Shown: positions 3,574 through 8,055 of the stretch, piece by piece
How positions within the stretch are numbered: position 1 is the first letter of the stretch
How the letters are laid out: each line of letters begins with the position of its first letter
Source: an uncultured Clostridia bacterium
Lineage (GTDB): Bacteria > Bacillota > Clostridia > Lachnospirales > Lachnospiraceae
Length of the DNA stretch: 10,360 nt
Assembly: GCA_946623485.1 (NCBI GenBank)
Contig: CAMORF010000047.1
Coordinates: 1-10,360 of the forward strand
Reading direction: 5' to 3'
Translations under genes and position numbers: made by a program
The notes under the pieces: generated by a model
Told to the model about the DNA's origin: nothing
Seen by the model: the letters and a program-made list of their open reading frames with translations, nothing else
Database searches by the model: none

Positions 3574-3690
3574 ATTCGGCATGAGGTGGCACCAGCGAAG
3601 CTGGTGACGGAGTCCTGGTGCCATATTCGGCATGAGGTGGCACCGGCTTTAGCCGGTGACGGAGTCCTGGTGCCAAATTCGGCATGAGGA
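3574..3690 (+). repeat. Tandem hairpin repeat, two full units of 51-52 bp and a partial third
   Basis: Unit 1 is 3574-3624, unit 2 is 3625-3676, and a 13-base partial copy (ATTCGGCATGAGG) begins at 3677. Each full unit has the same frame: ATTCGGCATGAGGTGGCACC, a variable middle, then GGTGACGGAGTCCTGGTGCC. Each can form an inner 7-bp hairpin (3590-3606 and 3641-3658) or an outer stem of TGGCACC with GGTGCCA (3587-3593/3617-3623 and 3638-3644/3669-3675). The two share the CACC strand, so they compete. Between units the inner stem changes from an A-T to a G-C pair, which keeps the pairing. The array ends about 70 bases before the sigma gene. It looks like a dispersed intergenic repeat, but copies elsewhere cannot be seen here. 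Confidence 0.85.
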
Positions 3691-4950: not shown

Positions 4951-6717
4951 ATGGGGAATCGTATGAAGAATTGTTACAGAATAAGTCGTTTCGCTCTGGC
5001 GCTGCTGATGTCACTGGTCATGTCATTGTTGTCTCTCTCCACTGCTTTCGCGGCGGAATATGACTATGCGTATCCGTCGGCATCCAGTAAAAAGGGCTTG
5101 TATATCCGGCCGGGGATGGAAGAGGATGCGCTGGAGCTGGGTGTCCGGCATGCGACGATCAACCTGAGTGTTGGGGACTTTTTGCCGGCGCCTGCATTCC
5201 GGAACGAGACCAACTGTATCCCGTTTTCCTACGAAGGGACAACATACTGGTTCTCCAAACAGGCGGTGGGACAGTATGATACGGAGCTGATCCGGCTTGC
5301 GCAGGGCAATGTCCTGGTGACGGCGATCCTGTTGCTTCCGAACCGGACCGATGACCTGCAATACCTGATCTATCCCGCGGCCAGGGGAAAGAGCGCCAAC
5401 TATTACCAATGGAATATGGCAAGCGAAGAGGCGATCCGCGCCCTGCGGGCAATCGTGACTTTTTTCCAGAGAAGGTATTCCGGGACTTCCGGCCCGAGGA
5501 TTGTCGGGTGGATTGTGGGAAATGAAGTGAACAATTCTGGTGTGTGGAACTGGGCAGGCAATATCGACCAGGATACCTATGTGGGGCTCTACGCAGCCCA
5601 GGTTCAGGAGGTATACAATGCCGCGCGCAGCGTATGCGCGAATACCCGGATCTATATGTGCCTGGATCATTATTGGTCTGTGGGAAACGGGAATTACTGG
5701 TACGCAGGGAAGGAAATCCTGCGTAAGTTCGCTTCTGCCATGGCAGCCAGGGGGCTCGGGAACGGTACCTGGAACATTGCCTATCATCCTTATAATATCA
5801 GCCAGTATGAGCCGAACATCATGAGCAACAGCGATGCCGTAACAAACAGCCCGGACACGCGCATCGTCACGATGAAAAACCTGAAAGCATTTACCAAGTA
5901 TGTCAAAAAGCATTACTCCAAAAACTGCCGGGTGATCCTGAGTGAACAGGGGTATTCTTCTGTCACTGCCGGGAAAGATACTTCGGCAGAGCAGGCAAGG
6001 AACATCGCCCTGGCTTATTACATTGCCCAGCAGAACAGTATGGTGGATGCCCTGATCCTGCACCGGCAGGTGGACCATACCGCGGAAGAAGAGCGGTTCG
6101 GGCTGTACACAAGCTGGGGCGGAGAGAATGCGGCCCTGCCGAAGCCGTCATGGTCCTCTTATAAATATGCGGATACCACGGCTTCAGACCAGTATACAAA
6201 AGACGCTGCAAAGCAGGCGAAGGATCTCCTTGGGAAAAAAGTGAAAAAAAAGCTGACGGTAAAGCGCGGCAACCTGCAGCCGATCGGCGACCTGTCCTGG
6301 ACAAAGAGATACGGGAATGGCTTTGCTTCTTTTGGGGCACTGACTGAGTTCAGGCAGGAGAATGATGGATATGTCCTGGTCCATGACTATGCGAGAAATC
6401 CGAATGTTCCCTGGGGAATGATCCGTAACGGAAAGATCAACTGCAAGAAAAGGACAAAGTTTGGTTTTGGCGTCTACGTCAGCAGCTCGCTGAGTGGAAC
6501 CGCAGTGGTATATCTTAGGCTTTGGTCCGGGAACAATTGTTATTATGATGCGTCCGCCATCATTCCATGCGGCACACAGAACCAGCTATATGCGGAACTG
6601 AAGAATTGGAAATACCGGGGAAAGATCACGAAGGCGGAGATAATGATCCGGCCGAATCAGGCAGGCTGGGAATCCGGGACGAATGCCCGCATCTATTCCA
6701 TTGGAGCAAGACCCTGA
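4951..6717 (+). CDS. Secreted DUF5722 protein, TIM-barrel glycoside-hydrolase-like
   Basis: The 588-residue product begins with a signal peptide (hydrophobic core about 14-33, likely cut after AFA at 34), so it acts outside the cell. Residues 45-405 match my memory of DUF5722, a family of unknown activity with a clan GH-A-like barrel: GLYIRPGMEEDALELGVRHATINL, VTAILLLPN, NYYQWN and GWIVGNEVNNSGVWNW. The Asn-Glu pair N191-E192 fits the acid/base at strand 4, HPY (279-281) a strand-6 site, and E332 in VILSEQGYSS the nucleophile at strand 7. These roles are inferred by analogy. A basic linker (KKVKKKLTVKRG, 429-440) leads to a C-terminal beta-rich domain (441-588) that may bind carbohydrate. ATG 4951 and ATG 4963 have equally modest GGA ribosome sites five bases upstream. 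The gene starts 53 bases after the sigma gene without a clear terminator, so co-transcription is possible. Substrate unknown. Confidence 0.85.
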   Translation: MGNRMKNCYRISRFALALLMSLVMSLLSLSTAFAAEYDYAYPSASSKKGLYIRPGMEEDALELGVRHATINLSVGDFLPAPAFRNETNCIPFSYEGTTYWFSKQAVGQYDTELIRLAQGNVLVTAILLLPNRTDDLQYLIYPAARGKSANYYQWNMASEEAIRALRAIVTFFQRRYSGTSGPRIVGWIVGNEVNNSGVWNWAGNIDQDTYVGLYAAQVQEVYNAARSVCANTRIYMCLDHYWSVGNGNYWYAGKEILRKFASAMAARGLGNGTWNIAYHPYNISQYEPNIMSNSDAVTNSPDTRIVTMKNLKAFTKYVKKHYSKNCRVILSEQGYSSVTAGKDTSAEQARNIALAYYIAQQNSMVDALILHRQVDHTAEEERFGLYTSWGGENAALPKPSWSSYKYADTTASDQYTKDAAKQAKDLLGKKVKKKLTVKRGNLQPIGDLSWTKRYGNGFASFGALTEFRQENDGYVLVHDYARNPNVPWGMIRNGKINCKKRTKFGFGVYVSSSLSGTAVVYLRLWSGNNCYYDASAIIPCGTQNQLYAELKNWKYRGKITKAEIMIRPNQAGWESGTNARIYSIGARP

Positions 6718-6740: not shown

Positions 6741-6881
6741 GAATCATCAGGAACATGAATCATCGGGACATGAATCATCGGGACATGAATCATCAGGGAC
6801 ATGAATCATCAGGGACATGAATCATCAGGAACATGAATCATCTGGGACATGAATCATCGGGACATGAATCATCAGGAATAT
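6741..6881 (+). repeat. Minisatellite of nine 15/16-bp units abutting and forming a start codon
   Basis: Nine head-to-tail units follow GAATCATC[A/T]GGGACAT, or the 15-base form lacking one base. They start at 6741, 6757, 6772, 6787, 6803, 6819, 6835, 6851 and 6866. Six are 16 bases long and three (second, third and eighth) are 15. Each junction reads ACATGAATC, so an ATG recurs at 6755, 6770, 6785, 6801, 6817, 6833, 6849 and 6864, preceded by GGGA or GGAA. The ninth unit is slightly changed (GGAATAT) and supplies the A and T of the start codon of the DUF362 gene at 6880. Each junction also carries the dyad ATGAATCAT. The array begins 23 bases after the stop of the DUF5722 gene. There are no spacers, so it is not CRISPR. 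Confidence 0.95.
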
Positions 6882-8055
6882 GAAAAAACAGGAAATCATC
6901 GTTGCGTGCGGCACGGATATCATACAGATGGCGGCCGCGCTGTGTAAAATGGCAGATCTAAGCGCCTTGATCCGGATGTCCTGCGGGAAGCGTCAGCCCA
7001 GGATTGCGTTAAAACCCAATCTTCTCGGACCGATCCCGGCATCGGAAGGTGCCACCACCCATCCGCAGGCTGCGGAGGGCGTGATCAGCTACCTCCGGGA
7101 GCAGGGATTTGAAGACATTGTCATGATGGAAAGTTCCTGGGTGGGGGACAGGACAGAGGATTCGCTTCTCGTGACCGGGTTCGGAGCATTGTGCGAAAGA
7201 TTAAACGTGCCGTTCTTTGACCTGCAGAAGGATTCCGCCGTGACCGTGGACTGCGCGGGCATGATGCTGAAGATCTGCAGGAAGGCACTGGAGGCGGACT
7301 TTCTGATCAATCTTCCTGTGGCGAAGGGACACTGCCAGACCGGCATGACCTGTGCCCTGAAGAATCTGAAGGGGTGCATTCCGGCATCGGAAAAGCGAAG
7401 GTTCCACCGGATGGGGCTGCATGAGCCCATCGGGCACCTGTCGGCAGGCCTGAAGCAAGGCTTTATCCTGGCTGACGCCATCTGCCCGGATCTGATGTTT
7501 GAAGACGGGGGGAATCCGGTGCCGCTGAATCGATTGGTTTGTGCCGTTGACCCGGTTTTGCTGGATGCGTATGTCTGCGGTAAGCTGGGACTTGATCCGG
7601 CACAGGTCCCCTATATCCGGATTGCGGAAGAATGCGGCGCGGGATCATCGGATCTTCTGGCCGCATCGGTGACGATGCTCAGAGAGGATTGGCAGAACAA
7701 GGAGGCAAGGTATCTTGAGGAGGCCGACTCCGGGGACACCTGGAGGAACGAGGCGGATTGTGCCCTTTCCGTGAAGGAGATGGTCAGCGACGTGGATTCA
7801 TGCTCGGCATGTTATGGAACGCTGATTCCTGTATTACATAAGCTGGAGGCGGAGGGGCTGTCATTTGCCCCTGGGGAAAAGCTATGCATCGGTCAGGGAT
7901 GGCGCGGCATGTCCGGAGCAATTGGGATCGGAACCTGTACGTCCGGTTTTGCGTGTTCCCTCCCGGGATGTCCTCCTGATGCCGTTGCGATGGAACGTTT
8001 CCTTCGGGAAAGAATGGCTTCATCGGACCAAAGGCGGGGGTGTGCAACGACTTGA
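6880..8055 (+). CDS. DUF362 domain protein with cysteine-rich C-terminus (putative Fe-S protein)
   Basis: The 391-residue cytoplasmic protein carries DUF362 hallmarks: IALKPNLLGP (42-51), EGATTHPQ (56-63), MMESSWVGDRTEDS (82-95) with TGFGALCERL, and a central FLINLPVAKGHCQTGMTCALKNLKGCIP stretch (141-168). The family's reaction is not settled; several members bind iron-sulfur clusters. The C-terminal part has C308-x2-C311 (DSCSACYG), C336, C353 (GIGTCTSG), C359 and C364 in GCPP, a set that could hold a [4Fe-4S] cluster (inference). ATG 6880 is the only near start: a TGA in the same frame lies at 6865-6867. Its ribosome site AGGA (6874-6877) is only two bases from the ATG, an unusually short gap, and both belong to the last minisatellite unit. 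No own promoter was found, so expression may depend on read-through from 4951 upstream. Confidence 0.85.
   Translation: MKKQEIIVACGTDIIQMAAALCKMADLSALIRMSCGKRQPRIALKPNLLGPIPASEGATTHPQAAEGVISYLREQGFEDIVMMESSWVGDRTEDSLLVTGFGALCERLNVPFFDLQKDSAVTVDCAGMMLKICRKALEADFLINLPVAKGHCQTGMTCALKNLKGCIPASEKRRFHRMGLHEPIGHLSAGLKQGFILADAICPDLMFEDGGNPVPLNRLVCAVDPVLLDAYVCGKLGLDPAQVPYIRIAEECGAGSSDLLAASVTMLREDWQNKEARYLEEADSGDTWRNEADCALSVKEMVSDVDSCSACYGTLIPVLHKLEAEGLSFAPGEKLCIGQGWRGMSGAIGIGTCTSGFACSLPGCPPDAVAMERFLRERMASSDQRRGCATT

Follow-up and report, generated by a model that had tools for sequence, protein, structure and literature searches.

A minisatellite that takes in a DUF362 start codon, and spacer arrays elsewhere in a Lachnospiraceae genome

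Why would a tandem repeat run through the start codon of a gene? We analyzed a 10,360-nt stretch of DNA (the window), contig C47 of a 2.45-Mb genome that is 73% complete and lies in 390 contigs, in which a minisatellite fills most of the spacer between a DUF5722 gene and a DUF362 gene (Table 1). Of 15 named loci that encode a related DUF362 protein, the three nearest come from MAGs, two of uncultured Lachnospiraceae and one of uncultured Clostridia, and rumen is stated for one. An earlier note on this DNA had seen in the array a tandem amplification of a translation-start region, built from ribosome-site/start-codon modules, in which gain or loss of units might tune the output of DUF362. With moderate confidence, we favor a reading in which the minisatellite is non-coding, arose locally in the spacer, and split a compact gene pair as it expanded by slippage. 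It would be one case of spacer expansion rather than a dedicated switch, because in the sampled part of the same genome other spacers have grown through arrays of this kind.

Table 1. Features at the DUF5722-DUF362 junction (window coordinates)
Feature	Position	Strand	Basis	Remarks
DUF5722 gene, upstream neighbor	4951..6717	+	Pfam PF18989, E 9.3e-106	Stop 162 nt before DUF362 ATG
Minisatellite, nine 15/16-bp units	6741..6884	+	TRF and unit parse	Ninth unit holds DUF362 start codon
11-codon frame	6801..6836	+	Unit parse	TGA overlaps ATG 6833
16-codon frame	6833..6883	+	Unit parse	TGA 6881-6883 overlaps DUF362 ATG (ATGA, -4 nt)
Out-of-frame reading from ATG 6849	6849..6947	+		Also entered from 6864; stop inside DUF362
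AGGA	6874..6877	+		2 nt before DUF362 ATG; sole 4-nt Shine-Dalgarno match nearby
DUF362 gene, 391 aa	6880..8055	+	Pfam PF04015, E 1.7e-47	

The structure of the array is clear. TRF gives it a period of 16, 9.2 copies and a score of 232, and its parsed units measure 16, 15, 15, 16, 16, 16, 16, and 15 bp, with a last unit that extends into DUF362; head-to-tail units of this size (about 10-60 bp) make it a minisatellite. GAATCATC and the ATG are invariant in 9/9 units and GGGA or GGAA lies one base upstream of every ATG, while the base preceding GG and the choice between GGGA and GGAA vary. TRF and the parse thus bear out the description in the earlier note of nine units each carrying one of these tetramers and then an ATG, with the DUF362 ATG (6880) in register as the ATG of the ninth. 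As an array, it is not the product of chance, because a two-unit pattern (at most two mismatches) is confined to it: all five matches in its own genome fall inside it, and 249 other genomes drawn from the family hold none. The shared unit was found nowhere outside the array in 250 family genomes (its own included) and the viral contigs, and DNA matching found the array in 0 of the 18 congeners that, with its own genome, make up our genus sample of 19. An ATG inside a unit is by itself unremarkable (32 of 73 sampled non-coding consensus units of the genome have one on the + strand). The window has no Rfam match at gathering scores, and a + strand scan of the spacer for promoters and terminators found none, its counts being at shuffle level.

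Could a DNA- or RNA-binding regulator of DUF362 recognize the units as a row of sites? The invariance of GAATCATC through all nine units speaks for such sites, as does ATGAATCAT, which forms, by eye, a 4-bp dyad around one base. So short a dyad is, however, expected by chance in some 16-bp units; moreover, the pattern is absent from the rest of the genome and from the 249 other family genomes, and no unit is common to the other arrays. We regard binding sites as quite improbable. Likewise, an array of 144 bp is close to the usual short-read length, so that in a genome as fragmented and incomplete as this one the array, or its number of units, might have arisen in assembly. Yet the units differ from one another and sit between unique flanking sequences in a single contig, two arrays come to within 15 nt of a contig end among the 76 ends sampled, and comparable junctions in other assemblies also carry arrays (DUF362 in G015 and trpB-trpA in G014). 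We consider an assembly product very improbable.

Are the units working ribosome-site modules? Judged by their sequence, they do not look so. The DUF362 start is probably right, because the alignments of most congeneric orthologues begin at residue 1 or 2, and 12 nt upstream of it there is an in-frame TGA. The earlier note had correctly placed its ribosome site a mere two bases from the ATG. Two of the eight upstream ATGs (6755 and 6833) likewise have AGGA 2 nt away and no other match; the remaining six have no 4-nt Shine-Dalgarno match within 16 nt, two of them having one only at 17-18 nt and four having none within 25 nt. Hence, 0/9 array ATGs have the Shine-Dalgarno match at 4-12 nt that a tandem of modules would carry, three having AGGA at 2 nt. 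When scored as a 4-nt match to AAGGAGGTG at 4-12 nt before either of the first two ATGs (starts being approximate), 212 of 298 sampled ORFs of at least 200 aa in this genome have a site, and 11 have a closer match only. The same spacing occurs in 9 of 11 congeneric DUF362 orthologues that lie behind DUF5722 (G009 and G018 have no match). The leader folds no better than its shuffles (z of +0.89; 163 of 200 fold at least as well). Of the supposed ribosome-site/start-codon modules, then, the ATG register is supported and the ribosome-site part is not, six of the eight upstream ATGs being without a workable match.

The part of the start-module reading that stands is the frame geometry. As had been noted, most of the eight upstream ATGs open frames that close within the array (five of them: 6755, 6770, 6785, 6801, and 6817), and 6849 runs out of frame into the gene; 6864 does the same, both stopping at 6947. 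The TGA said to overlap the next ATG does overlap an ATG, but that of a later unit, reached after two 16-nt steps. A point absent from the earlier note is that the frame from 6833 ends on the DUF362 ATG itself, at ATGA 6880-6883, which is the short stop/start overlap expected of a termination-reinitiation pair. If reinitiation is assumed at every stop-ATG overlap, 2/8 upstream ATGs (6801 and 6833) reach DUF362, and 6/8 pass beyond it. Units of 16 nt shift the frame and units of 15 nt do not; by frame arithmetic alone, loss or gain of one unit routes the first array ATG to DUF362 in 9 of 16 cases. Both the parse and this arithmetic support the ATGA overlaps and the frame logic, by which a change of one unit sends the upstream frames along other routes.

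Does this geometry amount to a copy-number switch, in which gain or loss of units changes the frame meeting the DUF362 start, tunes output, and is under selection? The 9 of 16 single-unit changes that send the first ATG to the gene rather than past it favor one, as does the frame shifting of 16-nt units against 15-nt units. We nevertheless think a switch unlikely: the upstream ATGs have no workable ribosome sites, many other arrays of this genome precede genes without a start codon in register, and the first array ATG lies 37 nt beyond the DUF5722 stop. In one study, coupling of three E. coli gene pairs dropped by 80-90% or was abolished at 38 nt, and reporter work showed it declining within some 20-40 nt (PMC10666635); a review cites work in which coupling was not lost up to +25 nt (PMC12548453). 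Because coupling declines within 20-40 nt and the stop precedes the first ATG by 37 nt, DUF5722 is unlikely to feed the array strongly.

How common are such arrays in this genome and its relatives? We surveyed same-direction spacers for tandem arrays of at least 20 nt, with genes called by a simple longest-ORF rule, in a sample of this genome and in parts of 7 of the 18 congeners. In its sampled part, this Lachnospiraceae genome of rumen type abounds in spacer minisatellites that arose locally. Arrays were found in 47 of its 216 sampled spacers vs. 16 of 427 in the seven congeners pooled (Fisher 4e-12; G008, 5/157; G015, 3/22; G002, 2/44; G009, 0/74; G013, 2/21; G014, 4/61; G016, 0/48), and E. 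coli K-12 gave 0/24 over its first 50 kb by the same procedure. There are 73 non-coding arrays in 601 kb of our genome vs. 40 in the roughly 1,143 kb sampled from the seven congeners, and those of at least three copies number 26 vs. 7. In G013, where coding-sequence arrays outnumber those of our genome, the density of all non-coding arrays is close to the focal one (112 vs. 121 per Mb, from a small sample of seven arrays in 63 kb); the excess is therefore clearest at three or more copies. The periods of non-coding arrays show no bias toward multiples of 3 (24/73), and those of coding arrays do (60/73). No common unit was found among 44 array units from same-direction spacers, in which some short words are over-represented (e.g., TTGAT, 10 vs. 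2.3 expected).

Spacers with arrays are also longer than their counterparts. We took conserved residues in the proteins on either side as end points, which was possible for 53 of 269 gene pairs. By this measure, array spacers exceed orthologous ones by a median of 96 nt (range -4 to 239; n = 11), whereas array-free spacers show a median difference of 0 (range -1026 to 383; n = 42; p 7e-4). Three of the 11 array spacers belong to one operon, and one (-4) is not longer.

Has this genome a general habit of amplifying start regions? Copies of start regions upstream of genes were found at 4 of 334 starts vs. 11 of 1336 control positions inside genes, and at 5 of 1033 vs. 33 of 4132 when eight genomes were pooled. 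We reject such a general process, as it is not clearly enriched over the in-gene controls. Six of 53 listed array-start pairs of the genome were flagged as having a start in register: the DUF362 pair, a second pair in the window (a GTG before a sigma-70 gene, probably not its start), one ATG with 4 of 11 bases alike, and three GTG or TTG codons. The array unit is itself moderately like the head of its own gene, the consensus matching 8 of 13 positions after the ATG (a score that 15 of 1055 other heads reach) and the best of five unit forms 9 of 13 (3 of 1055). Of the idea that a start region was amplified in tandem, the register holds and a parallel in G015 (see below) agrees; the ribosome sites and enrichment in the sampled genome do not. 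No special amplification of starts is needed to account for the array, because many unrelated minisatellites occupy gene spacers here.

Some other repeats deserve mention. In this genome, a 346-aa ORF begins at a 16-bp repeat (L116:8556-8596) that appears by eye to be a second start-region duplication and a second true case of a start in register; AAAGGAG is normally spaced from the ATG there. At L123:6383-6506, a 16-bp × 7.8 array of CTGAATGATTCAGGAT units lies ahead of a 370-aa ORF call, similar to the DUF362 unit in style and unlike it in sequence. Before the sigma-70 (rpoD-like) gene of the window, a 52-bp tandem repeat (3574-3689) belongs to a dispersed family with 15 matches in the genome, the window copy included; by eye, its unit holds an inverted repeat, TGGCACCAG...CTGGTGCCA, which we take to resemble REP-type elements.

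What did the junction look like before the array? A DUF5722 orthologue (at least 62% identity) followed by DUF362 occurs in 12 of the 19 genus genomes, ours included. The stop-to-ATG gap is compact in 3 of the 11 congeners with the pair (3 nt in G013 and G002, 4 nt in G009) and 16-131 nt in the others: 16 in G018 (taken from printed context), 18 in G005, 59 in G007, 66 in G008, 78 in G016, 84 in G015, 126 in G014, and 131 in G010. In G002 and G013, the DUF362 Shine-Dalgarno lies within the last DUF5722 codons. The sister species G015 has an array of its own at its DUF362 start (TRF, 19 bp × 2.8, with units of 18/19 bp), in register with the ATG; two upstream units match the head of its own gene at 11 of 15 positions after the ATG, as do 2 of 1056 sampled heads. 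The gap in G008 ends, by eye, in a near copy of the DUF5722 tail. Duplication seems to have struck this junction more than once, with different units.

Arrays also occur around genes that, judging by their protein sequences, we take to be trpB and trpA. The putative trp operon of our genome (L083:10008-13499) has four tandem arrays of differing units in its spacers, preceding trpB, trpA, and the gene before trpB, with a small one after trpA. In some congeners the two genes overlap, either by 4 nt (G011, G013, and G017) or by 8 nt (G004 and G006); for G002 and G014, -4 was computed, but from ORFs that are too long, with doubtful starts. In G008, G016, G018, G010, G005, and G015, they stand 37-111 nt apart and no array was detected between them. 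A 91-bp array precedes trpB in G002, and a 32-bp one does so in G013. At the trpB-trpA junction of G014 (L209:2672-2781) lies an 18-bp × 6.1 array whose unit is unlike ours except for GAATCGAT.

We propose the following history for the spacer minisatellite. An ancestor probably had DUF5722 and DUF362 separated by a few bases, the ribosome site of the second within the end of the first, and the pair was probably coupled; this compact state is a reconstruction from relatives, since only the three congeners noted above have it. Both gene ends carry similar AATCAGGAA-like words, and slippage there may have duplicated and amplified a 15/16-bp piece through the start codon. Such expansion would have carried the DUF5722 stop to its present distance of 162 nt and left DUF362 as it now stands, without a well-spaced Shine-Dalgarno. 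DUF362 might then be initiated directly, though weakly, on an unstructured leader, or be reinitiated from the small ATGA frame. The only feature with the potential to repair initiation is the -4-nt overlap of that frame (6833-6883), which possibly does rescue it. Elsewhere in the sampled part of the genome, similar arrays have lengthened spacers.

A wider version, in which slippage keeps inserting minisatellites into operons and splitting partners (DUF5722-DUF362, trp), small frames couple them again, and changes in unit number retune their ratios, strikes us as improbable. Taken singly, the array is of modest interest, although it offers a clean case of repeat frame arithmetic meeting a real start codon. 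Should the sampled pattern hold genome-wide, this lineage would show operon gaps growing by tandem duplication, and it raises the question of how translation is kept up after a compact junction has been broken.

How does the array compare with known systems? Our literature search, whose coverage left out most subscription journals, found no paper on the array or its source genome, and none that fully matched a search for repeats at ribosome sites. In a survey of archaea (142) and bacteria (119), 21 and 18 species, respectively, lay above 4 satellites per Mb, and unique, mutually unrelated satellites were reported in Methanobrevibacter ruminantium and Clostridioides difficile (PMC6749651); its detection rules differ from ours, and densities are not directly comparable. 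Like those satellites, ours are local tandem arrays with unrelated units, partly non-coding; unlike them, many lie in same-direction spacers, some within an operon, and one covers a start codon. With mycobacterial interspersed repetitive units (MIRUs), in which, according to a review, an ORF within the inserted repeat is coupled to the gene at -4 nt (PMC12548453), the array shares its position at a gene start and a small frame, here a predicted one, that overlaps the next start by 4 nt; MIRUs, however, are described as one mobile family, and the present unit is confined to one array. The TAACTGA repeats before start codons in Beggiatoaceae (PMC4679880) are the nearest parallel in position, although there one heptamer recurs at many genes and here each array has its own unit. 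Finally, the frame that ends on the DUF362 start resembles the pairs at which termination-reinitiation is described at ATGA overlaps (PMC10666635 and PMC6728339), but its upstream member is a 16-codon product of the repeat and no known gene.
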